A stretch of 28,996 nt of DNA from a virus, in IMG/VR virus record IMGVR_UViG_3300036670_000228, positions 1 through 28,996 of that record; one strand, given 5' to 3'. Position numbers and translations under genes: made by a program. This document shows, piece by piece, positions 881-28,996 of the stretch (positions are counted from its first letter, which is position 1; each line of letters begins with the position of its first letter). The notes beneath the pieces were generated by a model. The model did no database searches. It was not told where the DNA came from and worked only from the letters and a program-made list of their open reading frames with translations.

Positions 881-3800
881 TTAGATAACTGTGTAGTACT
901 TGGTCACGCGCACATTGGTGTTGGCCTGAGCTGCAATAAATTGCAACTGAACCACTGCACCACTGATGCTGGCGTTCATGATACCCACGTTACCGTTGGT
1001 AAACACCACACCATACTCACTGACTGTGGCAGTGGTATCGTCATGTATCACTATGGCCTCTGATGCCTGATACTTGCCAGCAGCAGTGGCTTGGACCACA
1101 TACTTGGCACTGCGATAGCTGGCCTTGGCAAAGCTATCAATGGTTGTTGCTGTATCAGCCGTGGCCACTGTAACATTGCCACCGTAGTTGACCCAGGCAC
1201 CAGTACTGGTAATACTGGATTGTAGGGTATGGCTAGTAGCACCAGTTTCACCAGTGTAAAATACCACACCAGTGTCAGCAGCAGCAATTTCATGATTACC
1301 ATTGCCACTGAGGATGCTGGTTATGGTCTGTGTGGTGGTCAGCTTGCGTACATCAATCAAATCGCCGCTGAGTGGCGCTTCAGTGAATGTAAGAGTATTA
1401 CTGCTCACGCTGTAGGCCAGGGTTGGAATCTGAACCACACCGTTAATACTCACTATGCAAGATGCAGTGGTCTGCGCCGATGTCAGGCCAAACACAACCG
1501 TAACACCGTCGCCAGTGAACTGCTGGTCAGCAATAACTGTGAACTGCGTGCTGGTCTGATTCCACTGATTGGAACCACCGTTGTAGTATTCCAGAGCATT
1601 CAGTGTGCTGTTGTAACGCAACATACCTGCCGTGTCCGTGCCACCAGTGGCACCAGGACGCTGTGCAGTGGTACCCACTGGCATTATCATGGAGTCAGTG
1701 CTGTTGATGGTCAACTTGGCACCGCGCACCAGACTGGACAACACACTGCTACCACCAATTACCACCTGATCATATGCACTACCGGCCTTGGCCCATACCA
1801 GTGTGGTATCAGCACCGCCGCGTACGATCAACTCATTGCCCACTGCCTGTGTGCTGTTGAATGTGGCACTCTTGCCCACAAACACATTGGCAGCAACACC
1901 CAGACCGCCCTGGGAAATAATGGCACCAGTTCCGGCGCTCACGCTATCCGCTGTGCTGGCACCCAGCAATGTACCATTGACTGTGGCAGCACCAGTGCTA
2001 ACCAGTGAACCCACAGTAGCAACACCTGCCACGCCCAGTGTATTACTGGCTGTAATAGTTGTGAATGCACCAGTGGATGCTACGCCGGCGCCGATGGTTG
2101 TACCATTCACGCTACCGCCAGTGATGGTTGCACCAGCACTGCTGAAGTTAGTCACTGTGGCATTGGTGGATGCAACATTGGTCAAGCCAGTGAGCGAACC
2201 GCCAGTTACCTGTGCATTGGCTGAGCTGAAGTTGTTGACAACACCAGTGGTTGCTGCCAGTGTAACACCAGTGACGCTGCCGCCAGTGATTTGTGCATTT
2301 GGTGTAGTCAAAGTGGTTGCACCCACAGTGCTACCGCTGACTGGAGTCGCTGTGATAGCACCACCAGTGATGGTTGCATTGCTGCTGCTCAGGTTAGTGA
2401 TCACGCCAGTGCTGGCACTCAGTGTGATTCCCGTTACGCTACCGCCAGTGATTTGCGCATTTGCAGTATTCAACACTGCTACTGTGGCAACTGTGAAGTT
2501 ACCAGTGCTACCACTGATTGGTGTGGCGCTGATAGCACCACCAGTGATCTGTGCATTGCCTGTGCTGAAGTTTGTGGCAGTGGCCGTGGTCAGTGCTGCA
2601 CTGGTATTAGTAATGCTACCGCTAACAATTGCTGCCGTACCGCTGAATGCACCGATAAACGTGGTTGCTGAGAGTGCATTCACGCTTGGGTTCACTGTCA
2701 GGCCAGTGCTGGCAAAAGCCTGCAGGTTACCGCTGGTTGCGTTGACAAATTCCAGGTAGAATGTGTTGTTGACAGCAGACGCAACCACATTGTCAGTGAG
2801 ACTGACCTGTGCAGTTGCAACTGTCCCAGACACTGTGCTGGCAGCTACACTACCACCAGTTACCTGTGCATTGGCAGTAGTGAAGTTGGTTGCGCTCAGG
2901 TTAGTGAATGCACCAGTGCTACCGCTGATTGGGGTCGCTGTGATAGAACCACCACTGATTTGTGCATTTGCACTGACCAGAGTCGCAGCAGTTGCAGTGG
3001 TAAACGAACCAGTGCTACCGCTGATTGGTGTGGCGCTGATTGCCCCGCCAGTTACCTGTGCATTAGCAGTGCTGAAGTTAGTAACCACACCAGTTGTAGC
3101 TGCCAGTGTAACGCCAGTGATGCTACCGCCAGTTACCTGTGCGTTGGCAGTGCTGAAGTTAGTAACTGCCCCAGTAGTAGCTGCCAGATTGGTCAGTGTT
3201 GCATCAGTGGCAGCCAGTGTGCTGAGACCTGATACTGTTCCACTGCTGATAGCAGCAGTTCCAGTGAATGTACCCACAAAGTTTGTGGCTGACACTGTAT
3301 TGGTACTAGGGTTAGCAGTGATGCCAGTGCTGGCAAATGCCTGCAGGTTACCTGATGCACCACTGGTGAATTGCAGGTTAAAGCTGGCATTGGTCGTGGA
3401 AGCAACCACATTGTCAGTAAGACCAACCTGTGCAGTGGCAACCGTTCCATTGATGGCGCTTGGTGCAATACTACCACCAGTGATCTGTGCATTACCAGTG
3501 TTTAGCGTGGTGAATGTACCAACCAGGGCTGATGCGTTGGACAAACCAGATACGCTACCACCAGTGGCCGTGAGGCTGGCCGTGTTGATGGATGCACCAG
3601 TGATGGCACCGCCAGTGAGCTGAGCGTTACCGCTGTTCAGTGTGGTAAATGTACCAGTGGTTGCAGCAGCACTGGTCAGACCAGATACGCTACCGCCGGT
3701 GGCTGTCAGGCTGGCTGTGTTAACAGTTGCACCACTGATAGCACCACCAGTAACTTGCGCATTACCAGTGTTTAGTGTGGTAAATGTACCAACCAGTGCT

Positions 3801-6800
3801 GCTGCACTGGACAAACCAGATACACTACCACCAGTGGCCGTCAGGCTGGATGTGTTGATGGTTGCACCAGAAACACTACCGCCAGTGACCTGTGCATTTG
3901 CAGTACTGAAGTTAGTAACCACACCAGTTGTAGCTGCCAGTGTAACGCCAGTGATGCTACCGCCAGTTACCTGTGCATTAGTGGAACTTAATGGACCAGT
4001 GATAACACCAGTGGAGGTGAGTGTACCTGCCACTGTAGCACTACCGCCCACCACTGCTGCACCAACTGTGTTCAGAACTGGTACTGTGAGATTCTTGTTG
4101 AAGCTCCAGGAATCCGTTGTTCCGCTGTACAATACAGTTGCGTTGGCACCAGCAACAGTCAAACCAGCACCATCAGCCTGTGCAGCACTGGTTGCGCCGC
4201 TGGCCAGTGTGATGTTAACATCTGCTGTACTCAATGTGGTGGAATTAACTGTGGTGCTTACACCCTGAACAGTCAAGTTACCACTGATGATTGTGTCGCC
4301 GCCAACATTAAGATTCTTAGCAATGCCAACTCCGCCTGCAACAATCAGTGCACCATTGGTAGCCAATGTACTCTGTGTGGTGCCAGTGACAGTTGCAGTG
4401 GTTCCAGACAATGTTGTGAAACTACCAGTGCTTGGAATTGCATTACCAATTGGAGTATTATTAATACTGTCAAAAGTTCCGCTGCTGGCAGTCAGGTTAG
4501 TAAAGCTACCAGTACTACCACTGATCGGTGTGCCAGTGATCGCACCACCAGTGATCTGTGCATTTGCAGTAGTCAGTGTGCCCGCAGTTGCAGCAGTTGC
4601 AGCCAGAGTGGTAAAGCTACCAGTGCTACCGCTGATTGGGGTTGCTGTGATATCGCCGCCAGTGACTTGTGCATTTGCAGTGGTTAGAGTTGTTGCACCC
4701 ACTGTGCTACCACTGACTGGTGTGCCAGTGATGCTACCGCTGCTGATAGCAGCGGTTCCAGTGAACGTACCCACGAAGTTGGTGGCTGATACTGTGTTTG
4801 TGCTAGGGTTAGCAGTAATGCCAGTGCTGGCAAATGCCTGCAGGTTACCTGATGCACCACTGGTGAATTGCAGGTTAAAGCTGGCGTTGGATGTGGAAGC
4901 TACTACATTATCAGTGAGGCCAACTTGTGCAGTGGCAACTGTTCCATTGATGGCACTTGGTGCAATACTACCACCAGTGATCTGTGCATTACCAGTGTTC
5001 AGTGTCGCAAAAGTACCAGTGGTCGCCGCAGCACTGGACAAACCAGATACGCTACCACCAGTGGCCGTGAGGCTGGCTGTATTGATGGATGCACCAGTGA
5101 TGGCGCCGCCAGTGAGTTGAGCGTTGCCGCTGTTCAGTGTGGTAAATGTACCAATTTCTGCGGAGGCACTGGTCAGACCAGATACGCTACCGCCGGTGGC
5201 TGTCAGGCTGGCTGTGTTAACAGTTGCACCACTGATAGCACCACCAGTGATCTGTGCGTTACCGCTGACCAGATTGGTTGCTGTGGCAGTGGTTGCCGTT
5301 AGTGTGCTGAATGCACCAGTGCTACCGCTGATTGGTGTGGCGCTGATAGCGCCACCAGTGATCTGTGCGTTTGGCGTGGTCAGTGTGGTTGCACCCACTG
5401 TACTACCGCTGACTGGTGTTGCTGTAATAGCGCCGCCAGTGATCTGTGCATTTGGTGTGGTCAGTGTAGTTGCACCCACTGTGCTGCCACTGACTGGTGT
5501 TGCTGTAATAGCGCCGCCAGTGATCTGTGCGTTACCGCTGAGCAAGTTGGTTGCAGTTGCAGTGGTGGCTGACAACACAGCCAATCCAGTGACATTACCG
5601 CCAGTTACTTGTGCATTAGCAGTGCTGAAGTTTGTGGCAGTGGCTGTGGTCAGTGCCGCGCTGGTGTTAGTGATACTACCGCTAGTAATGGCTGCTGTAC
5701 CGCTAAATGTACCCACAAATGTGGCCGCTGTTACTGATCCTACAGCTGGGTTGATAGCCACGCTGCTGGAAGCAAATGCTGCCAGGTTACCGCTGGTGGC
5801 ATTCACCAGCTGTGGATAAAATACTGAGCTGGCGCTAGTGGCAGTCACTGCTTCAGTGAGAGCGACCTGAGCCGTTGCCACTGTGCCAGTGATGGCCGTG
5901 GACACCACACTACCGCCAGTGATCTGTGCATTTGCAGTGCTGAAGTTAGTTGCAGCCAGTGTTACAGCAGATCCATTGATACCAGTTACACTGCCGCCAG
6001 TAATCTGTGCGTTACCAGTGTTGACCGTGCCAATGCTGGCAGTGGTTGCTGATACGTTGGTCAGGCTAGTAGCACTACCGCCAGTGATCTGAGCATTGCT
6101 GCTGTTCAGATTTGTCACTGTTGCATTCACTGAACCCACATTGGTCAATCCAGTGAGTGAACCACCAGTGATTTGTGCGTTACCGCTGCTAAAATTAGTA
6201 CTATTGGCAGTACTAAATGCTGCTGTACCAGTATGTGATCCAGCAATTGCACCACCAGTGATTTGTGCGTTACCAGTGCTGAAGTTAGTGGCGGTGGCGG
6301 TGGTAGCTGACATGGATGCCAGGCCAGTGACGCTGCCGCCAGTGATCTGTGCATTTGGTGTGGTCAGTGTAGTTGCACCCACTGTGCTGCCACTGACTGG
6401 TGTTGCTGTAATAGCGCCGCCAGTGATCTGTGCGTTGCTGCTGTTCAGATTCGTGATGGTACCAGTTGTGGAAACAATATTTCCAAATAGTGCACCGGTG
6501 ATTGTACCAGCACTCAGCGCGCCAGTGATGGTTATATTGCCCGATGATACCACATCAGATGCTGTAACTTTACCAACTTTGATATTGGTGAAGCCAGCCA
6601 CGCTTAAATTCTGAAAGCCCGCACCAGTATCGCCAGTGGCGATAGCAGTGAATGCTCCATCATTCTCGGACCATACCCAGGCTGTATTCACGCTGCCATA
6701 GCCTGTGAGAGTTGCCAGATTACGGTTTACCAGGATACCAATGTCATATCCTGACAATGAACCCACGTATCCGTTGTTAAACACCACCAGTGGGTCATTT

Positions 6801-6988
6801 ACGTAGGTGTTGGTTGCACTAATGCTAGTAGAACTACCAGTAACACTCAGGTTACCAATAATACTAACATTAGAATTTAGTGTGATATCAGGGGCGAACA
6901 GCGCACCAGTTAACGTCTGGGAGGCTATTTTCCCCGCCGTAATAGTTGCGTCTGTGATCTGATTATTCTTGATTCTAGTTACTGCCAT
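881..6988 (-). CDS. Giant repetitive fibre-like virion protein (2035 aa)
   Basis: The N-terminus (MAVTRIKNNQITDATITAGK) and the GNLSVTGSSTSI segment are typical of phage fibre/appendage proteins. Roughly residues 185-1620 hold about 30 copies of a NAQ[IVL]TGG heptad set in Thr/Ser/Ala/Gly-rich units of 20-40 residues (SGSTVGATTLTTP, SLTATGGSVSGL). Four copies of a longer module start near GTVATAQV and end near GTAAI. The C-terminus has a MLRYNSTLNALEYYNGG module, then VSINGVVQIPTLAY, then a ~100-residue domain ending in KYYTVI. All three recur in the 565-aa protein encoded next. Almost no Cys or charged patches are present, consistent with an extended beta-structured fibre. It probably forms a long tail fibre or whisker-like appendage. 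Receptor specificity cannot be read from the sequence. Confidence 0.85.
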   Translation of the reverse strand: MAVTRIKNNQITDATITAGKIASQTLTGALFAPDITLNSNVSIIGNLSVTGSSTSISATNTYVNDPLVVFNNGYVGSLSGYDIGILVNRNLATLTGYGSVNTAWVWSENDGAFTAIATGDTGAGFQNLSVAGFTNIKVGKVTASDVVSSGNITITGALSAGTITGALFGNIVSTTGTITNLNSSNAQITGGAITATPVSGSTVGATTLTTPNAQITGGSVTGLASMSATTATATNFSTGNAQITGGAIAGSHTGTAAFSTANSTNFSSGNAQITGGSLTGLTNVGSVNATVTNLNSSNAQITGGSATSLTNVSATTASIGTVNTGNAQITGGSVTGINGSAVTLAATNFSTANAQITGGSVVSTAITGTVATAQVALTEAVTATSASSVFYPQLVNATSGNLAAFASSSVAINPAVGSVTAATFVGTFSGTAAITSGSITNTSAALTTATATNFSTANAQVTGGNVTGLAVLSATTATATNLLSGNAQITGGAITATPVSGSTVGATTLTTPNAQITGGAITATPVSGSTVGATTLTTPNAQITGGAISATPISGSTGAFSTLTATTATATNLVSGNAQITGGAISGATVNTASLTATGGSVSGLTSASAEIGTFTTLNSGNAQLTGGAITGASINTASLTATGGSVSGLSSAAATTGTFATLNTGNAQITGGSIAPSAINGTVATAQVGLTDNVVASTSNASFNLQFTSGASGNLQAFASTGITANPSTNTVSATNFVGTFTGTAAISSGSITGTPVSGSTVGATTLTTANAQVTGGDITATPISGSTGSFTTLAATAATAGTLTTANAQITGGAITGTPISGSTGSFTNLTASSGTFDSINNTPIGNAIPSTGSFTTLSGTTATVTGTTQSTLATNGALIVAGGVGIAKNLNVGGDTIISGNLTVQGVSTTVNSTTLSTADVNITLASGATSAAQADGAGLTVAGANATVLYSGTTDSWSFNKNLTVPVLNTVGAAVVGGSATVAGTLTSTGVITGPLSSTNAQVTGGSITGVTLAATTGVVTNFSTANAQVTGGSVSGATINTSSLTATGGSVSGLSSAAALVGTFTTLNTGNAQVTGGAISGATVNTASLTATGGSVSGLTSAAATTGTFTTLNSGNAQLTGGAITGASINTASLTATGGSVSGLSNASALVGTFTTLNTGNAQITGGSIAPSAINGTVATAQVGLTDNVVASTTNASFNLQFTSGASGNLQAFASTGITANPSTNTVSATNFVGTFTGTAAISSGTVSGLSTLAATDATLTNLAATTGAVTNFSTANAQVTGGSITGVTLAATTGVVTNFSTANAQVTGGAISATPISGSTGSFTTATAATLVSANAQISGGSITATPISGSTGAFTNLSATNFTTANAQVTGGSVAASTVSGTVATAQVSLTDNVVASAVNNTFYLEFVNATSGNLQAFASTGLTVNPSVNALSATTFIGAFSGTAAIVSGSITNTSAALTTATATNFSTGNAQITGGAISATPISGSTGNFTVATVAVLNTANAQITGGSVTGITLSASTGVITNLSSSNATITGGAITATPVSGSTVGATTLTTPNAQITGGSVTGVTLAATTGVVNNFSSANAQVTGGSLTGLTNVASTNATVTNFSSAGATITGGSVNGTTIGAGVASTGAFTTITASNTLGVAGVATVGSLVSTGAATVNGTLLGASTADSVSAGTGAIISQGGLGVAANVFVGKSATFNSTQAVGNELIVRGGADTTLVWAKAGSAYDQVVIGGSSVLSSLVRGAKLTINSTDSMIMPVGTTAQRPGATGGTDTAGMLRYNSTLNALEYYNGGSNQWNQTSTQFTVIADQQFTGDGVTVVFGLTSAQTTASCIVSINGVVQIPTLAYSVSSNTLTFTEAPLSGDLIDVRKLTTTQTITSILSGNGNHEIAAADTGVVFYTGETGATSHTLQSSITSTGAWVNYGGNVTVATADTATTIDSFAKASYRSAKYVVQATAAGKYQASEAIVIHDDTTATVSEYGVVFTNGNVGIMNASISGAVVQLQFIAAQANTNVRVTKYYTVI
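3238..3755. repeat. Long internal duplication, copy 1 (pair with ~4738-5252)
   Basis: A block of roughly 0.5 kb inside the giant gene is repeated about 1.5 kb away. It codes for the SLTATGGSVSGL units, NAQITGGSIAPSAINGTVAT and the FNLQFTSGASGNLQAFAST module. The two copies are nearly identical by eye, with scattered third-position changes, suggesting duplication or gene conversion. The boundaries are approximate. Confidence 0.7.
4738..5252. repeat. Long internal duplication, copy 2 (pair with ~3238-3755)
   Basis: This is the second copy of the block described at 3238-3755, in the same orientation and reading frame. Third-position differences between the copies (for example in the stretch coding NFVGTFTGTAAISSG) show that it is not a very recent or assembly-generated duplicate. 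Confidence 0.7.
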
Positions 6989-7077: not shown

Positions 7078-8775
7078 TTATTTGGCAAAATAGGTCTTCT
7101 GTACCCTAGCAGCACTCACTCCTGAGAACCCAGTGGCACGTAGTTGTACCACATTGCCAGCTAGTGTGGCCCCATAGGATGCCACTAGTGATACCCCAGT
7201 ATAGATATTATTAGTAGTGCTGATCACTACCGCTGTGCCATTATGAACTACCCTGATGTCACTGAGCTGCTGTTCACCAGTGCTACTGGTAACTGATACT
7301 GAGTACTTGGCACTACTATAAATATCAGTATCAAATGCATCCAATATGGTTCCCTGATTATCAGTATTCACTGGAATACTGGGACTGGTCACTACTGATA
7401 AATTTTCGTCGATAGCAACCCCAGCTGCCACAAATCTCACATCAATTATATCTGAAGTTAATGGCGCAGTGGGAGTTCCACTGCTATAAAAAGTGATCTG
7501 ATTGGCGCTCACCAGATAGCTGACCCCAGGACGCTGCAAAACCCCGTTGATGCTCACCAGCACTCCATCACTGGTTGCGTTGTGGTCCAGTGTGTAGGTA
7601 TAACTGGTGCCATCTGGTGTTATGGTTTGATTGGTAATCTGGCTGGGTCCCAGTGGCAACCATTGATTTCCTGAATAATACTCAGGACTCAACAGGTCAG
7701 TGTTGTAGCGTATGCTACCCGATGGTGACGCAGTGGGTTGCTGAAAAGTGCTACCAGTGGGAATCACCAGCGCACCAGTGCTGGATATTACTGTAAGTGG
7801 CCCGTTAGGTACCAGTAGTAGATTTCCATTGGTACCCAGTATGTTATTGGTTCTCATGTTACCAGTGAAGCTGGTTGCACTGGCTGCACCACTTATGCTT
7901 GCATTGCCAGCAGTTACTGATCCCAGAACCAGGAGTTGAGTGAGTGCGCCCACGCTGGTGATACTGGGTTGGGCGGCAGTTTGCAGTGTTCCAGAGATAG
8001 TGCTAAACTGTGCAGAGCCACCAGCGACATTGCCCAGCAGATTACCAGTGATATTTGCTGAGAAATTTGCAGTAACGCCTGAGATATTACCACTGGATGA
8101 AATTCCAGCACTGCTGATGGTACCAGTGATCATGTTACCGGCTACAATGTATCCTGCACCATTGGCCTGCAGATTAAGGTTTCCGTTGATGTTAGTGATA
8201 CCAACAGTATTACCACTGACGTTCACGTTTCCAAAATCGCTGGAGCCAAATTGTCCTATGCCCTTGAATCCAGTATATCGTGCACCCACTATAAAAATAC
8301 TACGACTGGTGAATGAATATGGTGGTAGATTGGAATCAGGGAAGGTTAGCACACCGGACTGGTAGTCAAAGAACCAGGAGTCAGCTGCACCGCTGCCATT
8401 GGGAAACAACTGAGTACCAGACACCTGTGGTGAGCCAGACCCAGTGAGATCCAGGTACACACGCACCTGATATGTGGACCCAAATTCAGGAGTTACCCAA
8501 TCAGTTAATCCTGTGTTCCAGGTGCGATTGGTGGCTGATGTGGAATCCATGATGGCTGGTGCACCAGTGTAAACGCCAACCACGCCAGAACTGGCCACCG
8601 GAATCACTGATGGTATACTCTGACTCTGTTGCCAGATCAGGTCGCCTCTGATTAGCAGTGGACTGGCCACGGATTCATTGCTGGGGCTCTTGGCAGACTG
8701 TACATCAGTCTTGGTGATGCCGTAGCCAATTTTTTTAAACAAGTAGTCTATTTTTTGTGTATCTGAGATAGCCAT
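7078..8775 (-). CDS. Fibre/appendage structural protein (565 aa)
   Basis: The start is taken at the ATG at 8775 (MAISDTQKIDYLFKKIGYG). A longer reading from a TTG at 8796 would overlap the upstream gene. The ATG lies one base past the stop of the 686-aa gene. From memory, the N-terminal ~190 residues (KIDYLFKKIGYG, LLIRGDLIWQQS, DSWFFDYQSGVLTF, GARYTGFKGIG) match a conserved structural protein of cyanophages and other aquatic T4-like phages. A Gly/Ser/Ala repeat region follows (ITGNLLGNVAGG). The C-terminus has the module trio shared with the 2035-aa protein: SIRYNTDLLSPEYYSGNQW, LVSINGVLQRPGVSYLVS, and a terminal ~100-residue domain ending RVQKTYFAK. It is probably a virion appendage that uses the same tip or oligomerisation domain as its giant neighbour. 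Confidence 0.8.
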   Translation of the reverse strand: MAISDTQKIDYLFKKIGYGITKTDVQSAKSPSNESVASPLLIRGDLIWQQSQSIPSVIPVASSGVVGVYTGAPAIMDSTSATNRTWNTGLTDWVTPEFGSTYQVRVYLDLTGSGSPQVSGTQLFPNGSGAADSWFFDYQSGVLTFPDSNLPPYSFTSRSIFIVGARYTGFKGIGQFGSSDFGNVNVSGNTVGITNINGNLNLQANGAGYIVAGNMITGTISSAGISSSGNISGVTANFSANITGNLLGNVAGGSAQFSTISGTLQTAAQPSITSVGALTQLLVLGSVTAGNASISGAASATSFTGNMRTNNILGTNGNLLLVPNGPLTVISSTGALVIPTGSTFQQPTASPSGSIRYNTDLLSPEYYSGNQWLPLGPSQITNQTITPDGTSYTYTLDHNATSDGVLVSINGVLQRPGVSYLVSANQITFYSSGTPTAPLTSDIIDVRFVAAGVAIDENLSVVTSPSIPVNTDNQGTILDAFDTDIYSSAKYSVSVTSSTGEQQLSDIRVVHNGTAVVISTTNNIYTGVSLVASYGATLAGNVVQLRATGFSGVSAARVQKTYFAK

Positions 8776-8776
8776 A

Positions 8777-10837
8777 TTAGTTCGTTGCCGCTCCAATGCT
8801 GAGTGCAGACACTGATTGTCCCGCTGTAAGTTTGATTCTCACGTATATTTCATTACTAGGGGTACTGCTGGAGCTGACTGTACCAAAAGTCACTGTGACA
8901 GCCTGTGCCGTGACCACTGACCCCAGCACAGCAACACCGCCCAATGCTGCGCCGTTGCTACCATTACCACCGGAGCCAGTGTTGGTACCGGGTACTCCGG
9001 TACCAGCATAGGGCACACTGGTATCCAACCAACCATTGATACCACTGGTACTGTCCAGCTGGCTATCAGGTACGCTAACCCACATGCCGGCAATCGTACC
9101 AGTGTAGAGAATATTAAATTTACTCACTGCTGACCTGGTAAACTTCAGGGTAAAGTATTGTGCTGCACTGCGTCCCTGACTCAGATCAGGTCCTGCTGGC
9201 AAATAACCCACGCTGTAATTGGTCTGATCATGACGTAGTACTGCTGCAACAACTGTGGCATCAATTGTGCCCAGTGTGGATGATTGGCTGTTGAAGGGCA
9301 ATGCTCCGGCAGATATAACTGGAGTATCCACTGCACCACTGTTGATCACCACACGCGCAGCGGTGCCTGATCCAATGCCCACTGATACTGGTATACTGGT
9401 TTCTTCAATATTATTGGTAATCCCAGTTTTATACAATACCAGGGATGACGGTGAAAACACACTGGAACCAGTGCTATAGCTATTATCCACTGATACAGTG
9501 GGACCAGCAGAACTACTGCCAAATCCACCTATTATATTCACTGGTACAGAAACTGCCGCACTGCCACTGCTCACGTATAAATTCCTAGCCAATGGTGTAG
9601 TAACACCTGCGGTGGCGTAAGTAATACTGGCAGGAGTTGCAAATGCACCACCAGCCTGCCCAGTGATAAATGTATCAGTTACTGGATACAGGTCCCCGCT
9701 GAGTTTGGAGATGTTAAATTTCAAATTAAATTGCGTGCTGCTGGTATAGTGTGGTACAGTGGAACTATATGACACCAGATTAGCAGTATTGATCACTGAC
9801 ACATTGGAAAAAGTAGGGACACCAGGTTGTGCGCTATCATAGTACCAGCTGGCAGTATTGGTCTGGGTCAGTGTACCCTGGTCAGCCAGTCTCACCTGAT
9901 TCCATCCGGCGGCTACTGTCCCGGCTGCCCTGGCACTGAAAACTGACCAAAATCCCACTGGGATGCTGCTCAGCACCTGGTTATAATCCTGATTGTTACT
10001 GATGGTTAGCTCACCATAGCTACCGTCGCTGGACCCAGTGAGAGTTACGCTGCCGGTACGAACACCATTTACATTGGCCTCTATCAATCCCAGGTTACCT
10101 GGACCAGAGTTGACAATAGTACTGGTGGTATAGCTGGGTACTCTTAGCACTGATGTGACCAGGCTACCCGGTACTAGATTTTTATCAGCAGCTGGAGTGT
10201 GATCAGTCTGCACAAAGTTGGTCATCCTGCCAGGGGCCACAGTGCCAAGCACAGATAATGTCTGACTGGCTGGAAACACTGGAGGTTGTGGTGGAACCAG
10301 TTTTCCCAGAACCTGATTCATCAGTGCAATACCGTCGGTGACTTGTGTACTGCTGGTTAGTGCTACTGCATTACTCACCAGCTGGCCTTGAAGATTACTG
10401 CCCAGCGGTATTGTATTACCACGTAATCCACTGAGTGCCAGCAAATCGCTTACCCTGGCAAATGACAGGTTACCTGAGCCATCAGTGATAACCACGCCCT
10501 GTGCTGATCCTCCCAGAAGTTTAACTGAACTAACATTGCCCAGGTGCAGGTTCTCACCAGCGCCCACGTACAGGTCAGTGGCATTCCTGGCACTAATGGT
10601 TGCACTATCTCCACCAATTACAATGCTGGTGGTACCTATGCTTCCGGATACAGTAAGAGTCTCAGTGGGAGTAATATTGCCCACTCCTACTCTGTGCAGG
10701 CTGCTGACCAGACTGATAATAGGCAGTGTGTTGCTGGTAAAAGATAGATCATGCCCCTGTAATTCCAGGGTTGATTGTAGCATGCTACCTGATATTCTAC
10801 CCAATTTGGGTGCGGCTGTGGCTGATAATTGTACCAT
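8777..10837 (-). CDS. Fibre-like structural protein (686 aa)
   Basis: The N-terminus MVQLSATAAPKLGRISGSML is followed by phage-fibre-like segments (VGVGNITPTETLTVSGSIG, GENLHLGNVSSVKLLGG, SLSFTSNTLP-like strands). The next ~500 residues are Ser/Thr/Gly/Val-rich beta sequence (SYSTGSSVFSPSSLVLYKTG, IIGGFGSSSAGPTVSVDNS). A Gly/Asn-rich patch (GTGVPGTNTGSGGNGSNG) lies near the C-terminus. No enzymatic motif is visible. The gene ends one base before the ATG of the 565-aa gene, so the two are probably co-transcribed. An AATAAATA octamer lies just upstream. The likely role is a tail or virion-surface protein. I cannot assign it to a named T4 gene product. Confidence 0.75.
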   Translation of the reverse strand: MVQLSATAAPKLGRISGSMLQSTLELQGHDLSFTSNTLPIISLVSSLHRVGVGNITPTETLTVSGSIGTTSIVIGGDSATISARNATDLYVGAGENLHLGNVSSVKLLGGSAQGVVITDGSGNLSFARVSDLLALSGLRGNTIPLGSNLQGQLVSNAVALTSSTQVTDGIALMNQVLGKLVPPQPPVFPASQTLSVLGTVAPGRMTNFVQTDHTPAADKNLVPGSLVTSVLRVPSYTTSTIVNSGPGNLGLIEANVNGVRTGSVTLTGSSDGSYGELTISNNQDYNQVLSSIPVGFWSVFSARAAGTVAAGWNQVRLADQGTLTQTNTASWYYDSAQPGVPTFSNVSVINTANLVSYSSTVPHYTSSTQFNLKFNISKLSGDLYPVTDTFITGQAGGAFATPASITYATAGVTTPLARNLYVSSGSAAVSVPVNIIGGFGSSSAGPTVSVDNSYSTGSSVFSPSSLVLYKTGITNNIEETSIPVSVGIGSGTAARVVINSGAVDTPVISAGALPFNSQSSTLGTIDATVVAAVLRHDQTNYSVGYLPAGPDLSQGRSAAQYFTLKFTRSAVSKFNILYTGTIAGMWVSVPDSQLDSTSGINGWLDTSVPYAGTGVPGTNTGSGGNGSNGAALGGVAVLGSVVTAQAVTVTFGTVSSSSTPSNEIYVRIKLTAGQSVSALSIGAATN

Positions 10838-10852
10838 GTGTATTCCTATGTA

Positions 10853-10860
10853 TATTTATT
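10853..10860 (-). promoter_or_regulatory. Late-promoter-like octamer upstream of the 686-aa gene
   Basis: Minus-strand AATAAATA, 15 bp before the ATG at 10837, placed between that gene and the stop of the upstream gene (10861). Confidence 0.45.
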
Positions 10861-11313
10861 TTAGGGAACCAGTGTGGAATTCATACCATATATCACAGTG
10901 ATATTATTGGACCCAGGGTAGATGTCAGCGGCTGGCGGAGCTTCTACAAAACGCAGTACCCACCCACTGGAATCAACCAGGTCATAGTGTAGAGTGGGTT
11001 GTTGATATATTCCACTGATAAACACCAGATAGTTCTCGGGATTCAGCATAGCAGGTATGTCTGGATTCACTGCCACATCAAAGTCAGTGGAAATGCCGTT
11101 GCCAGTGAGATATGTCATGACCAATGGCACAGTGCCTGACACTGCTGTTTGACGCCATGCACTGCCATAATAAAATTCCACTGTACCCGAATCCAGGTTG
11201 TATCTCATCATGCCATTGGCTGGATGCTCTGGTGTGAGAGTGTCTCTGCCGCTGGGCAGTTGAACTGCCAGCACACCGCTGTCCAGTTGTGCATTCTTAA
11301 GGAATCTTCCCAT
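10861..11313 (-). CDS. Small structural protein sharing the fibre C-terminal modules (150 aa)
   Basis: The short N-terminus (MGRFLKNAQLDSGVLAVQLP) leads into two modules also present at the ends of the 2035-aa and 565-aa proteins. One is GMMRYNLDSGTVEFYYGSAW (compare MLRYNSTLNALEYYNGG). The other is VFISGIYQQPTLHYDLV followed by LRFVEAPP (compare VSINGVVQIPTLAYSV then LTFTEAPL). It therefore looks like a free-standing version of the fibre-tip module, without the repeat shaft and without the last ~100-residue domain. The ATG at 11313 follows the stop of the preceding gene by one base, which indicates translational coupling. A virion role is inferred from this homology and position. Confidence 0.75.
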   Translation of the reverse strand: MGRFLKNAQLDSGVLAVQLPSGRDTLTPEHPANGMMRYNLDSGTVEFYYGSAWRQTAVSGTVPLVMTYLTGNGISTDFDVAVNPDIPAMLNPENYLVFISGIYQQPTLHYDLVDSSGWVLRFVEAPPAADIYPGSNNITVIYGMNSTLVP

Positions 11314-17655: not shown

Positions 17656-20526
17656 TTAAGCTGCTGGTGCTGGAACATTTGCACCAGCACCCGCGGCAGG
17701 GGCACCTGGTGCTTCAGCCGTCCCACCAGCCATGCCAGCATCACCTGCCAGGTCAGGTGAGACATTTTCCAGGTCACTGGACAGCCCACCAGGAGTGATG
17801 CCCACGCTGCGTAGATCAGTCTGCCCTGGTGGTGCAGCTTCCACATCCCCCTGCTCCTCTGCCCATTGCTGCTGGTTTTCATTCATTTCCTGCTCACTTA
17901 GCCCCAGATATCGTTTCATCAACCAGCGCTTGGAAAAATATGGATATGCTTCCAGCTGTGTAAATGTGGCAATCCTGGCTGAATCCACATCAGCCTGAGC
18001 ATAATGTGCAAAGTTTTGTGGCTCCATGAGTACCACATCAAATAGTGCACTGTCAATATTCACACCACGCCAGCGCATGAACATCTTGAACTCCTGGTCC
18101 ATTTTGTCCACAATCATTTTCTGCAAACGTATGCAGTATTCGTTGAATCTTTTTTCCTGTATCAGTGCAGTTCCAACTTTTCCATCATTAAATGTGGCGC
18201 TACCCTCATCTGCGCCAGTGGGCAAATAGCTGCTGGGTATGCGTAGTCCACGAAATAGTTTGTTGGTAAAGAATCTCAGATCAGTTATTTCCCCAAGATT
18301 TGAATTTTGAGTGAATACGCCAGATGACAGCGCAAAATTATGGAAATCGTGATGCTCTTCATGTTGGTCAATGGTTAGTGTACCCACTTGAATTTTAGTG
18401 TCCAGATACTCAATACATACAATTTTATGATTATATTCCAGGACATCTTTCTTGAAATGACCCCAGCTGCTATAACCATTACGCTTGATGCATGCAACTA
18501 ACATTGATGAATTAAAATGTAATCCCTTCCATTTTTTGCTGTTAGTATCCACATTAATAGATTGCAGATGTCCTAGAAACTTAGGATCCATGGACATCTC
18601 GCTGGCTATTAAATCAATAGTTACATGTTTAGCAGCCATGACATGGCTTTGAATCATGTCCATGGCAATTTTATCATATTTAATTTCTTGATTACCAAAA
18701 TGCTTATTATAATAATCATGTAACCCTTCCGTTAATTTGGAAATATGTTGAGTCTTTTCCGTCTCAGCCATGCTTGCCCACATGGCTAATGCCCTCTTGC
18801 TATACTCCTTAATACATTTTTCGTACTCACTGGGGGCGTGCAGCTGCATTTCAGATAACCGATGTGATGCTGCTAACGTACCCAGCTGTTGCACTTCCGC
18901 ACTAAAACCATTGAATGCATGATATTCTTGATGATTTTCCCAATCCATTAACACTAAATTTTCCGGAGAATTATTAAATCTATCATGATCCACATGATGT
19001 ACTACATCATGGTCATGATGTTCACTATCAATACCAAACGTAAATTTATCCAGTGGCAGGTTATCCCTGACTACTCTATGAACAAATTCCCATTTCTTGG
19101 AATGATTTTGGTATACTTGAGTGTACTGACGCTTTGCGAATTTTGAAATTACTTCATTTTTTATATTATGTGGAATTAAACTGTCTGATACTACCAACTC
19201 ATCAGCCCGCAGCGTACCTCTACCAATAATTGGAAATTTATGATCTGGGGTAACAATGATACTTTCGCCATTGTCCAGCGTCAGTTTCATTACTCTGGCA
19301 GATTGTTGCGTTACCCCTGCCCAGCTAACCTTGCCGGGTACCACTTGACCAGATTTTGGATCACAACTGTATACCCAATTTTGTTTTCCATTCTGGTATT
19401 CATCGGACATTTCCGTCAGTGTTAATGTTCTACCATCCAATAATGGTACCCTGGTATCCATGGCCAAGCAGCCACCAGGCAATGCTTCCACGCTACTACC
19501 CCGGCCATCAGCAGTAACCGGAAAAAAGAAATCCTCATTTGTGCTTAGTGGATTATATGTAGCATCCATCATGTTTGCCCCGCCACCACTTTGGGTAGGA
19601 ATTCGACGCTGAGCGATTTCATTTTTAATACGATCCACGAATGCCATGGCCATGTGCGGGGGCATGTTACCCACATCAATCTTAAAAATTCTTCTCTCAG
19701 GTGCACGTTGCACACGATATATGATAATACTATCTTCCAGCAGTTCCTTCTGTTTAAATACCTTGAATACATGTTCCAGTACACTGGTACCAAAAGGCCA
19801 GTATGCATCCAGCCCCTCAGTCAAGCTCATATGCACTATGTGCTCGGCATTAATCACTGCTTCGTTGTGCTGATGAGAGAATCTGGAACCGCCGCTCTGT
19901 GCAGTATTGGGGGAAATATAGCCGCCATTGCCACCACCAACCTGGGGAGAATTACTGTAGCTATCGCTGGTACTCACTGCGGTTACAGTAAGATTTTGAA
20001 AATTAGGGTTGATGTCCTTGATCATGTACTGTTCAGGCTTTTTACCGTCAGCCTCATTCACAATTACCTTGGTCACGTTACCCATTTCAGTCCACATCAT
20101 TTTAAATGTCTGCGGATCACGTATAAACACCTGATCGCCGTACTTTAGTGTGTTGCGTACTATTTTAAACATACGCTTGTTGAACTCATTCAGTGCCACC
20201 CACTGCTGCAACTGCTCTTTGATAATGTTTACTTCATGATCAGTGGGCTTGTCCTTGTACCTGATCTCAAATGGTGTATGATTTTCACTGTTATCCTGGG
20301 AGCAAAACTCAGCCAAGATATCCAGTGCAGCATTTACTTCACTATCCTGATCCATGGCTTCATATTGGTTATAACGCTCTATGCGGTTAGGGTGACCCAC
20401 GTATACCTCAGGAAGCGTGCTCTGATAATTACGATAGCCTGGCTCAGGCATTCGTGTGCTACCGTTACCCAGTGGGCTAAGGTTGCTGGAGACGTTTGCC
20501 GTCTTGAAAAACTTTTTCCATGCCAT
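17656..20526 (-). CDS. 20: Portal vertex protein (T4 gp20 family) interrupted by an intein (956 aa precursor)
   Basis: The gp20 portal forms the dodecameric DNA entry ring and initiates prohead assembly. Family segments are clear: YQSTLPEVYVGHPNRIERYN, LKYGDQVFIRDP, EHIVHMSLTEGLD, LLEDSIIIYRVQRAPERRIF, and DFFFPVTADGRGSSVEALPG. After the intein come SNLGEITDLRFFTNKLFRGL and RIPSSYLP. Removing residues 353-741 leaves 567 aa and restores the continuous motif LPGG-SNLGE, a conserved part of T4-type portals. T4 gp20 is 524 aa. The C-terminus is a Pro/Ala/Gly-rich tail. The ATG at 20526 is preceded by a GCTAAATA octamer. Because gp20 is essential, splicing of this intein is presumably obligatory for virion production. 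Confidence 0.95.
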   Translation of the reverse strand: MAWKKFFKTANVSSNLSPLGNGSTRMPEPGYRNYQSTLPEVYVGHPNRIERYNQYEAMDQDSEVNAALDILAEFCSQDNSENHTPFEIRYKDKPTDHEVNIIKEQLQQWVALNEFNKRMFKIVRNTLKYGDQVFIRDPQTFKMMWTEMGNVTKVIVNEADGKKPEQYMIKDINPNFQNLTVTAVSTSDSYSNSPQVGGGNGGYISPNTAQSGGSRFSHQHNEAVINAEHIVHMSLTEGLDAYWPFGTSVLEHVFKVFKQKELLEDSIIIYRVQRAPERRIFKIDVGNMPPHMAMAFVDRIKNEIAQRRIPTQSGGGANMMDATYNPLSTNEDFFFPVTADGRGSSVEALPGGCLAMDTRVPLLDGRTLTLTEMSDEYQNGKQNWVYSCDPKSGQVVPGKVSWAGVTQQSARVMKLTLDNGESIIVTPDHKFPIIGRGTLRADELVVSDSLIPHNIKNEVISKFAKRQYTQVYQNHSKKWEFVHRVVRDNLPLDKFTFGIDSEHHDHDVVHHVDHDRFNNSPENLVLMDWENHQEYHAFNGFSAEVQQLGTLAASHRLSEMQLHAPSEYEKCIKEYSKRALAMWASMAETEKTQHISKLTEGLHDYYNKHFGNQEIKYDKIAMDMIQSHVMAAKHVTIDLIASEMSMDPKFLGHLQSINVDTNSKKWKGLHFNSSMLVACIKRNGYSSWGHFKKDVLEYNHKIVCIEYLDTKIQVGTLTIDQHEEHHDFHNFALSSGVFTQNSNLGEITDLRFFTNKLFRGLRIPSSYLPTGADEGSATFNDGKVGTALIQEKRFNEYCIRLQKMIVDKMDQEFKMFMRWRGVNIDSALFDVVLMEPQNFAHYAQADVDSARIATFTQLEAYPYFSKRWLMKRYLGLSEQEMNENQQQWAEEQGDVEAAPPGQTDLRSVGITPGGLSSDLENVSPDLAGDAGMAGGTAEAPGAPAAGAGANVPAPAA
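18304..19470 (-). mobile_element. Full intein with HNH homing endonuclease in gp20 (389 aa)
   Basis: The intein spans precursor residues 353-741. Block A starts with Cys353 (CLAMDTRVPLLDG). Block B is GESIIVTPDHKFPI with Thr426 and His429. Block F is HHDFHNFALSSGVF. Block G ends TQN741, followed by Ser742 as the +1 nucleophile. The penultimate residue is Gln instead of the usual His. Between the splicing blocks lies an HNH-type nuclease core at 510-536 (HHVDHDRFNNSPENL then ENHQEYH). A helical region follows that could bind DNA (around 630-690). No LAGLIDADG motif is seen. Excision joins LPGG to SNLGE. The insertion sits in one of the most conserved portal motifs, as homing elements usually do. 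Confidence 0.93.
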
Positions 20527-25189: not shown

Positions 25190-25657
25190 TCAGGCTATTG
25201 GGGGTATTGACGTGGTGTCGGATTTTAATAGGAATTTTTTTATAATATGTGAGCCGTGAACTCTCACTGAAATTTGACCATTGTAGTAGTCCATGGATTC
25301 CAGTACCTTGCGTTCAAATTGTTCACGAGCTTCTATATATGAAGTCTCAGCCTTGGAGGAACAATAGTGTAGTATTTCCCTGGAGAAATTTTCAGCACCC
25401 ATGCTAATAACATCTGCACTGAGCTCCAGGCTGCTGCCATAGTATTCAACCCAATCTGACTCAACAGATCCTCTGATTTTTTTTCTTTTCTTGGTACCGT
25501 TTTTCAGTTTAACTACCTTGTAGGTGGTTTTGGCAAACTTAGCCAGCTTCTTACCCACGTATCGACGTCCACTGACAGTATTGGTTATTAGATACACAAA
25601 ACCCACGCAGGTGTCTGGTAGCTGCTCAACAATATTTCCCTGATAGGTCCAGATCAT
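25190..25657 (-). CDS. GIY-YIG-like endonuclease (155 aa)
   Basis: The segment GFVYLITNTVSGRRYVGKK carries the VY...YVG pair of the GIY-YIG nuclease core (residues 21-35). A basic stretch follows (KVVKLKNGTKKRKKIRGSVE), then SDWVEYYGSSLEL, then SREILHYCSSKAETSYIEAR with a candidate metal-binding Glu in YIEAREQFE. Small proteins of this layout are common in T4-like phages and are often compared with the T4 Seg homing endonucleases. It may be a free-standing homing enzyme or a phage DNA-processing nuclease. It lies between the gene-poor stretch and the radical SAM gene, 39 bp after the latter. The start at 25657 has no strong ribosome site. Confidence 0.75.
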   Translation of the reverse strand: MIWTYQGNIVEQLPDTCVGFVYLITNTVSGRRYVGKKLAKFAKTTYKVVKLKNGTKKRKKIRGSVESDWVEYYGSSLELSADVISMGAENFSREILHYCSSKAETSYIEAREQFERKVLESMDYYNGQISVRVHGSHIIKKFLLKSDTTSIPPIA

Positions 25658-26790: not shown

Positions 26791-28782
26791 TCAACCTACT
26801 TCACTTATTTCTGTATCAGTACTATATTCTGTGAATCCATTGGATTTTACCACATGCAGTGTATTATTTACGCGACCTACCAGTTCGTCCTTGTGTGATA
26901 CCAACCAGATACTCTTTTTCTGCTCACGACTGGTTTTCTTCAATATGGCCAGTGCACTCTCAATACCACTGGCGTCCAGTCCGTTATCGATCAGCTCATC
27001 AATGAATAACAAGTTTATTTTCTGATACAAGGATTCCCAAACATCACGGAATGCCCAGCTAAGTGACAGTATCAGACGATTTCGTTCCCCACGTGAAAGA
27101 TTGTCAAAGTCTAGCTCTCTGCCAAGTTCCTCAATGGTTACTGACAGATCGTTATTGAACTTTACAGTATGTGGTAGACCAATTTGTCCCAAATAATACC
27201 CTAGTCTGATATTTAAGTAGGATAGATTCTGATCAATAATTTGTTTACGGATGAAACTATCCTTGTTACTCAGCAGCTTGTATAGCATTTCCTGATGATC
27301 ACGTAACAGACCCAGCGCTTCAATTTCATCATAGGTGACAGATTCAATTCCCACGTTGCACATTTCTTGAATTTGCTCAGAGTATGGATCCTGTTCTGCT
27401 TGCTTATTCAGTAATTGCTGCTGTATGTGTGCAATACTGCTGCGATGCTCCACTGCATCATTTTCATTATCATAGTAAACCTTGGGTTGGGTACCAGCAG
27501 CACCCAACTCTCCGAGTTTAGTGGTATGCTCCAATAACTGTGTGTTGGTTGCTAGATATTGTAATGCAGCTTCCTGTAATGCAGCTTCCTTGCTGGCCAG
27601 TACAGTGGAGTGAGCATCATCATGTAAGTCGCTACCGCATGCATAACACTTGTGGTCTTTGAGTAGATTTACTTCCGATTTTAATTTATCAATGAGTTTA
27701 AGTTCGCGCACCTGGGACAAATCACACTGTTTGATATATTTGTTAACACTGGCCAGCTCTCTGGTTAGCTCAGTCCAAGCAGTCAGTGCTCGGTGTGCGA
27801 TCAGTTCAGCCGCGATGTCAATATGGCCCAACTCAGTCTGAGACTCTTGCAGATCATTTATATCCTGTGTATGTTTGGCGACCCACACACGCTCTCTACG
27901 ACGTAGATTCTCTATTTGTTCTTCCACTCGTTTGTTGGCATCAGTTACTGCCTTGATGCGGAATTCTTCTTGTGTGATGGCGTCCTTGGAGATTTTGATC
28001 TGATCCTTGAGCTTGTCAGCTTTTTCACTGAGCAGTGTGATGCCCAGCAACTGCTCGCTGATCATGCGCTGATCATTTGCACGCATGCTAAGAAACGGCT
28101 CAGTGTATGTATTCAGCGCTAGAATGTGTTTGAACATGTCATGACTCATGCTGTATATACGTTCCAGCTCGGCCTGTGTTTCTCGACTGTCACCCTGCGC
28201 ATCATCCACTTTTTTCTCGTCTCCGCCTACCCATAGTTTCATAACAGTAGGTTTACGACCACGTTCAATTTTATACTCTACTCCGTCCTTGGCAAACTCC
28301 ACTGTGACCAGCATGTTCTTGGCATTGGTGCGATTGATTAAATTATCCTTGCGGATGTTACTGATGGCATTGCCGAACATGGCATAGCTCAGTGCATTGA
28401 TGATGGTGGTATTATGTGAGAGTATTCCGTTTGAGTAGAATCTATGATTCGGGGAATCCACTGTCAAGTCAAACATTGGCTCAAATACACATTGGTTTAC
28501 CACTGTAGCTACCAATTGTGGTCCAGATTCAGTCATGATTTTGGATCGCATGGGGATGAGATCTTTGACAAACACTTGGTTTAGATCGTGATCAAACACA
28601 ATATGAGTGTCGGCAGCATCCAATTGCAGCCCGCCTGTGGTAGACAAACTCCATTTTTCATAATCAATAGTTTTGTGAATTTTGTTTAAATTAACCCACC
28701 CAGTGTCGGTATCAATCTCAAAATTTGAAATATCAAATGATTTAACAAATTTTCTAGTTATTGAGTCAGAAAGTTCAAGCAT
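26791..28782 (-). CDS. 46: C-terminal intein fragment fused to gp46 C-extein (recombination/SbcC-like ATPase, 663 aa)
   Basis: Residues 125-663 are the SMC/Rad50-like ATPase gp46 without its first ~35 residues. They show TTIINALSYAMFG right after the P-loop position, a coiled coil, the zinc hook CYAC at 379-382, the second coiled coil, the ABC signature NLSRGERNRL at 561-570, Walker B INLLFIDE at 589-596 and the His switch LVSHKDE near 630. With gp47 it forms the end-resection nuclease for recombination-dependent replication. The Walker A loop GxNGxGK is absent. In its place residues 1-124 are intein sequence ending SHN. The protein should be functional only after trans-splicing to an N-half encoded beyond the window. 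The ATG at 28782 lies inside the end of the nuclease gene upstream, with only a weak ribosome site. Confidence 0.9.
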   Translation of the reverse strand: MLELSDSITRKFVKSFDISNFEIDTDTGWVNLNKIHKTIDYEKWSLSTTGGLQLDAADTHIVFDHDLNQVFVKDLIPMRSKIMTESGPQLVATVVNQCVFEPMFDLTVDSPNHRFYSNGILSHNTTIINALSYAMFGNAISNIRKDNLINRTNAKNMLVTVEFAKDGVEYKIERGRKPTVMKLWVGGDEKKVDDAQGDSRETQAELERIYSMSHDMFKHILALNTYTEPFLSMRANDQRMISEQLLGITLLSEKADKLKDQIKISKDAITQEEFRIKAVTDANKRVEEQIENLRRRERVWVAKHTQDINDLQESQTELGHIDIAAELIAHRALTAWTELTRELASVNKYIKQCDLSQVRELKLIDKLKSEVNLLKDHKCYACGSDLHDDAHSTVLASKEAALQEAALQYLATNTQLLEHTTKLGELGAAGTQPKVYYDNENDAVEHRSSIAHIQQQLLNKQAEQDPYSEQIQEMCNVGIESVTYDEIEALGLLRDHQEMLYKLLSNKDSFIRKQIIDQNLSYLNIRLGYYLGQIGLPHTVKFNNDLSVTIEELGRELDFDNLSRGERNRLILSLSWAFRDVWESLYQKINLLFIDELIDNGLDASGIESALAILKKTSREQKKSIWLVSHKDELVGRVNNTLHVVKSNGFTEYSTDTEISEVG
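28411..28782 (-). other. C-intein of a probable atypically split intein in gp46 (124 aa)
   Basis: The fragment contains FEIDTDTGWVNLNKIHKTID, a block-B-like LQLDAADTHIVFD with Thr59-His60, VFVKDLIP, block F MFDLTVDSPNHRFYSN and block G GILSHN124, followed by Thr125 as the +1 residue. Block A with the first Cys is missing. The split therefore lies close to the N-terminus, giving a long C-intein. This is the arrangement of atypically split inteins such as AceL-TerL, not that of gp41-1 or DnaE, whose C-inteins are about 35-40 residues. The join would recreate GK-TTIINAL, the Walker A loop. Confidence 0.85.
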
Positions 28783-28996
28783 TTAGTAATAGTTCCAGGT
28801 AAGTCATGTTTTGTTTCAGATTCCCATACAACCAGGACCTGGTATCCCTGGTCCTCTAGTAGTTTTTGTCGAGCTGCGTCATCAGCCCAAATTGTTGCAG
28901 CGATTTTAGATTTAATTTTACTGTGGCTACTGTATTTTTTCGGATTAGCGTGCCAGTAATCACCGTAATATTCAATTATCTTTCGTCCGTGTAAAC
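28758..28996 (-). CDS. Partial Vsr-like homing endonuclease, N-terminus beyond window
   Basis: The frame is open from the right edge to a TAA at 28758-28760 (78 residues visible). HGRKIIEYYGDYWHANPKKY carries the GDYWHxNP motif typical of Vsr-like (EDxHD-type) phage homing nucleases. ATIWADDAARQKLLEDQGYQ then VLVVWESE matches the second half of that fold. It was not in the supplied list of complete ORFs because it lacks its start. It overlaps the C-intein gene by 25 bp in another frame. Vsr-like endonuclease genes are known to sit between the halves of fractured genes with split inteins, and that is how I read it. It could also be the 3' part of a longer ORF that includes the N-intein. Confidence 0.8.
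   Translation of the reverse strand, partial: LHGRKIIEYYGDYWHANPKKYSSHSKIKSKIAATIWADDAARQKLLEDQGYQVLVVWESETKHDLPGTITKCLNFLTQ

Follow-up and report, generated by a model that had tools for sequence, protein, structure and literature searches.

The subject of this article is a phage gene whose product, if the reading given here is true, would possess an ATP-binding loop only after two separate proteins had been spliced together. The gene lies in the environmental phage record IMGVR_UViG_3300036670_000228 of IMG/VR, which was analyzed over its whole length of 28,996 bp (the window), and an open reading frame (ORF) at 26791-28782 on the minus strand represents, in all likelihood, the C-terminal half of a fractured and trans-spliced gp46, one half of the phage Rad50/Mre11-type complex. 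The ORF encodes 663 amino acids (aa), of which residues 1-124 (codons 28782-28411) are a C-intein (IntC) ending in ...SNGILSHN and running directly into TTIINALSYAMFGNAISNIRKDNLINRT of the gp46/SbcC-like part, residues 125-663, which matches PHROG_77 by profile (E 5.7e-79). This C-extein, extending from the Walker-A Thr to the stop (26791-28410, minus strand), is by sequence a gp46 of the T4 gp46/SbcC family, i.e., an SbcC/Rad50-like recombination ATPase subunit; it shares 66-68% identity with the nearest IMG/VR gp46 genes and 47% with the gp46 of cultured PA5oct-like Pseudomonas phages, in an alignment that begins at residue 125.

The point at which the gene is divided can be placed to the codon. 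None of the 80 closest gp46 genes in IMG/VR is interrupted there; their first ~50 residues end in ...LVLGENLDLGGDDSGARNGTGK or a close variant and continue with TTIINALSYALYG, and in 80/80 of them the window's junction, where SHN is followed by TTIINALSYAMFG, falls between the Walker-A Lys and Thr. Because these intact homologues align across the point without a break, the insertion must lie exactly between the Walker-A Lys and Thr, which makes the Thr encoded at 28408-28410 (minus strand) the +1 residue of the C-extein; the P-loop Lys/Thr position is a classic intein insertion site (PMC5050341). A preliminary description of this stretch, drawn up from the sequence alone, had the ORF opening with an intein of ~124 residues that ends SHN/T (the slash marks the junction) and gp46 resuming exactly at the Walker-A GK/T, and it was right on both counts, while the N-extein that it put at about 35 residues is closer to 50, judging from the intact homologues and from the relatives described below. 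The gp46 genes nearest to that of the window are all intein-free, which fits a sporadic gain of the element.

As for the first 124 residues (28411-28782, minus strand), tblastn, profile and model searches all point to an intein. The window IntC finds the TerL intein of Vibrio phage VP-1 by tblastn (1e-22) and, more weakly, those of other Vibrio phages and Ackermannviridae, and a profile of eight IntC relatives compared with solved structures in the PDB matches VidaL (E 8e-11) as well as gp41-1 and CatC; Pfam Intein_splicing alone gives a marginal match to the window IntC (E 0.21). In other inteins the alignment starts only well past the beginning of the protein, in keeping with the lack of a short N-intein (IntN) here. 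Across 60 IntC rows K11, G28, T38, A57, D58, H60, M103, D105, H123 and N124 are invariant; His113 is nearly invariant in the alignment used for modelling. The window holds each of the splicing positions expected of its half: His60 in the block B motif ADTH (codon 28603-28605, minus strand), Asp105, His113, the penultimate His123, the terminal Asn124 (codon 28411-28413, minus strand) and Thr+1. With Cys1 supplied by the IntN of relatives, the splicing residues of a class 1 intein appear from the alignments to be complete across window and relatives taken together. An AlphaFold model built from an alignment of 56 rows (predicted local distance difference test, pLDDT, 92) gives IntC an intein fold, and its best structural match is again VidaL (Foldseek 1.5e-7; Z 15.1, 2.2 A over 108 residues), with CatC matching too. 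The ratio of nonsynonymous to synonymous substitution (dN/dS) of IntC within closely related pairs is 0.04-0.22, a mark of strong purifying selection.

No N-half could be found anywhere in the window, as the preliminary description had also noted; both strands were searched and yielded no significant match, the reason being that the window is the entire record and ends inside an endonuclease ORF. An attempt to extend the contig with the exact 25-mer from its end found no match in viral_contigs, nor did the DNA of 28411-28996 match any cultured phage. Relatives from viral contigs were thus gathered by way of an endonuclease search, an IntC profile and an N-half profile (loci labelled L###), one IntC sequence by itself having retrieved nothing in a scan of viral_contigs and an alignment profile being required to recover the loci. 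Not counting the window, they comprise 34 gp46 IntC sequences that are distinct from one another, and 32 of the 34 loci hold all three parts, namely gp46-N with IntN, an overlapping endonuclease ORF and IntC with gp46-C. The extein gene is hence divided at a single point, with the C-half seen in the window and both halves in these 32 relatives. Here gp46-N is ~50 aa long and closes with ...GxxGK, and the next residue is the Cys that opens an IntN of 32-40 aa (modes 37 and 39; L170, truncated to 16 aa, is the exception), so the small ORF foreseen in the preliminary description, a gp46 N-terminus ending in GK and then a Cys-initiated block A of roughly 25-50 residues, does exist in 32 distinct loci, with an IntN of some 37 residues. 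The N-half ends in GK in 33/33 and IntC in HN in 34/34; at the +1 position 23 of the 34 have Thr and 11 have Ser. In L011, for example, the N-half (6497-6763) reads MIEYQTLTVKNFMSVGNSTQALSFNQENLTLVLGENLDQGGDDNGSRNGTGK (gp46-N) and then CCCIDTIVRVKNTITGEITELTMGELYNAAMEQQSRI (IntN) up to its stop, followed by the endonuclease and by IntC with its C-extein (7817-9802; MHTISDSVNRKF...NGVLSHN, then TTIVNALSYALYG). L010 and L011 both have a gp47-like ORF immediately upstream, and the split gene occurs in both the jumbo-phage and the T4 type of gp46. In L010 the gp46-C frame (10213-11154) ends at 314 aa, and 352 aa more follow in a different frame, which may reflect an indel in the sequencing or one more break in the gene. 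If these loci are what they seem, they enlarge the stock of natural short-IntN pairs of IntN and IntC by dozens, which is of use in protein ligation.

Large records with the split gene also speak to the idea that the split copy is a relic and that an intact gp46 elsewhere in the genome does the work. The window record, at 28,996 bp, would leave a second copy outside it unseen, which is a fair objection; however, split-gene records of 289, 251, 151 and 115 kb contain no second, intact gp46, and since only the split gene is present there it is no relic in those phages, for which this alternative was rejected. A complete second gp46, named in the preliminary description as a refutation, is absent from these relatives, and the window's own gp46-C is a full open frame with the identity to cultured Pseudomonas phage gp46 given above, all of which leaves the relic highly improbable.

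Between the two halves lies what is, by predicted fold and conserved residues, a Vsr-like (I-Bth0305I/EDxHD-type) homing endonuclease. In the window only its C-terminal 78 aa are present (28758-28994, minus strand), open at the contig end, and they match the C-terminus of a family annotated as VSR endonuclease in Aeromonas phages, with 41% identity to the VSR endonuclease of the Aes123/Aes508 gp43 elements. The full-length protein in relatives (complete in L010, L011 and others) has ~360-370 aa, and an AlphaFold model of its homologous 150-residue domain from L011 (pLDDT 92) finds 3r3p, the I-Bth0305I catalytic domain, as the top Foldseek match, then 1vsr (E. coli Vsr), and also 1cw0. Residues K73, E76, G79, W82, H83 and E130 are invariant and D67 is nearly so in 34 rows; the window fragment covers those from K73 onward and has all of them. 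The ORF, whose DNA cutting is predicted, would be the mobility gene of the element, a point that the preliminary description did not develop. Past the record end (28995-28996, minus strand) one would expect the missing ~290 aa of endonuclease and the gp46-N+IntN ORF (~50+37 aa), all within some 1.1-1.2 kb of 28996 to go by L010, L011 and 30 other loci.

The endonuclease stop and the IntC ATG overlap by 25 nt (28758-28782, minus strand), and precisely this overlap is kept at the DNA level in 37 loci, the window and 36 others, in gp46 and TerL elements alike, with a mean pairwise identity of 0.74 within the 25 nt vs 0.59 and 0.66 on either side, as would be expected for a dual-coding, coupled junction. 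The overlap decides the case of a maxi-intein of the ordinary, continuous sort, its endonuclease in frame, that only looks broken in the window because sequencing or assembly went wrong near 28758-28782. Such proteins do exist among relatives, since the TerL inteins of cultured Ackermannviridae are continuous and the intein match in Vibrio phage Va1 lies far inside one long annotated ORF, beside a Vsr-like match, and this counts in favor of the error; but the frame change cannot be an error when 36 further loci, drawn from many separate metagenomes, have the same overlap with its raised DNA conservation, and not one of the distinct gp46 elements is continuous. A sequencing error joining endonuclease to IntC was consequently discarded, and with it the corresponding refutation proposed in the preliminary description, and a broken maxi-intein may be regarded as next to impossible.

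The fractured gp46 would then work as follows. A mobile element consisting of IntN, the Vsr-like homing endonuclease ORF and IntC sits between the Walker-A Lys and Thr codons, and gp46-N (~50 aa) with IntN and IntC with gp46-C would be made as separate proteins from overlapping cistrons. Once IntN, with its Cys1, had bound IntC, the chemistry would be that of a standard intein, an N-S acyl shift at Cys1 being followed by attack of the +1 Thr and by cyclisation of the Asn. GxxGK would in this way be joined to T, so that the P-loop would be restored and gp46 could bind ATP only after trans-splicing. The endonuclease would presumably cut intein-free gp46 alleles in co-infecting phages, with repair copying the whole 1.5-kb unit into the cut allele. 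Could the two gp46 pieces instead assemble non-covalently, with the intein halves as mere passengers? There is precedent in the NrdA of an Aeromonas phage, a split gene whose pieces assemble unspliced (PMC2988022), and no splicing product of split gp46 has been seen; against this, all splicing positions are conserved in 34/34 distinct elements, IntC is under the strong purifying selection described above, and an unspliced C-half would bear 124 extra residues exactly at the position of the P-loop Thr, making such an assembly very unlikely. Trans-splicing of a fractured gp46 has further points weighing against it: this phage's own N-half is not seen, the record stopping within the endonuclease ORF; no split gp46 was found in cultured phages; the Foldseek matches behind the endonuclease fold have weak E-values (0.02); and the window IntC sits on a long branch (0.92) with no firm grouping with other gp46 inteins.

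How does this arrangement compare with known systems? The fractured genes of Dassa et al. 2009 (NAR 37:2560) are reportedly interrupted by inteins that are divided where an endonuclease usually lies, which gives a long IntN and a short IntC, with gp41, NrdA/NrdJ and IMPDH as hosts. They resemble the gp46 element in that two ORFs share the host gene, the intein halves adjoin the break and a separate Vsr-like endonuclease ORF lies in between, whereas the gp46 element is split near the intein N-terminus and has another host gene. Fractured genes and atypically split inteins are both established classes (PMC11766414, PMC13014065), the latter defined by an IntN of ~15-37 aa and an IntC of >100 aa (PMC13014065), and the 124-aa IntC of the window with the 32-40 aa IntN of its relatives belongs among them. 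The atypically split TerL inteins AceL-TerL and GOS-TerL have an IntN of 25 and 37 aa (PMC11766414, PMC13014065), and these and the consensus Cat intein (PDB 6dsl) share the short IntN and the IntC of >100 aa, CatC being matched by both the IntC profile and the model; they differ in their host gene, and GOS-TerL has Ser1/Cys+1 in place of the Cys1/Thr+1 of the gp46 elements. The preliminary description's comparison to AceL-TerL was apt as to layout, but not in calling that layout rare, given that fractured genes with atypically split inteins are common in environmental T4-like phages. VidaL (PDB 6vgv), the best match in sequence and structure and itself naturally atypically split, has an IntN of 16 aa (S1 split) vs the 32-40 aa of the gp46 relatives. 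The TerL inteins of Ackermannviridae (VP-1, VAP7, VPALA, CRW-SP2) are homologous (~40% identity) and occupy the same Walker-A GK/T position, those of Vibrio phages/Ackermannviridae sitting at QSGK/C...SHN/TT, but are continuous in one ORF and hosted by a terminase, and the DNA polymerase gene gp43 of the Aeromonas phages Aes123 and Aes508, annotated in the same cistron order of N-intein, VSR endonuclease, C-intein, is another gene with a cysteine-less intein (PMC13014065). The layout is of a known kind and gp46 as its host gene is unreported as far as I searched, in that no earlier report of a split intein in gp46 turned up in the literature covered, an incomplete search that does not prove the absence of one.

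The mobility of the unit is best seen in L172 and L173, whose elements are 99.8% identical over 1,536 bp while their gp46 hosts share 78% (N-extein) and 72% (C-extein) identity, the identity stepping sharply at both borders; both versions were met again in samples that had been assembled separately (L172=L175; L173=L176=L177). By comparison of sequences, this is the signature of a whole IntN-endonuclease-IntC unit that has recently moved from one gp46 gene into another, diverged one, and it would constitute a clean natural record of a split unit homing between such genes, bearing on how a three-cistron unit moves as one. L170 has the left gp46 flank of L172 and the right flank of L173 around a near-identical element, and may have arisen by recombination in one-sided homing or as a chimera of the assembly; it was not used as evidence. 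On a longer time scale, in a tree of 62 IntC domains four or more switches between gp46 and TerL are needed, and the window IntC falls among the TerL inteins, but approximately unbiased (AU) tests did not reject a single gp46 intein clade (p 0.18-0.29), so that no separate invasion is claimed. Hopping of the element between different P-loop genes is plausible. That one split P-loop element family, targeting Walker-A GK/T codons, hopped among unrelated ATPase genes (TerL, jumbo-phage gp46, T4 gp46), with the gp46 of the window invaded separately from a TerL-type element, is a scenario that I offer tentatively and consider somewhat doubtful.

Other P-loop genes in the collected loci look similarly broken. 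The TerL of cultured Salicola phage SCTP-2 (L003 4001-4894; L296) appears fractured at the same Walker-A point, its halves lying ~173 kb apart on opposite strands (256428, plus; 429404-429691, minus) and the second piece seeming to end in another N-intein after LLYC. The TerL genes of L139, L193 and L199 have two IntC-bearing breaks, one at Walker A and a second before CHFLGSSNTL or CNLLYLDEFAH, and are apparently in three pieces, and in L009, L015, L018, L020 and L021 a UvsW-like helicase is fractured at the P-loop (ATGAGK/C ... HHN/T), with an endonuclease ORF that overlaps or abuts the halves. The window itself also contains, all on the minus strand, a 2,035-aa repeat protein (881-6988; NAQITGG, TLTATGGSVSG) with no PHROG match, a T4-like portal gene (gp20; 17656-20526) with a continuous intein and an HNH endonuclease motif (Pfam Intein_splicing 1e-11), and a free-standing SegE-like GIY-YIG homing endonuclease (25190-25657; PF19835, 3.9e-31), so that, with the Vsr-like ORF, three kinds of homing endonuclease are found within 29 kb.
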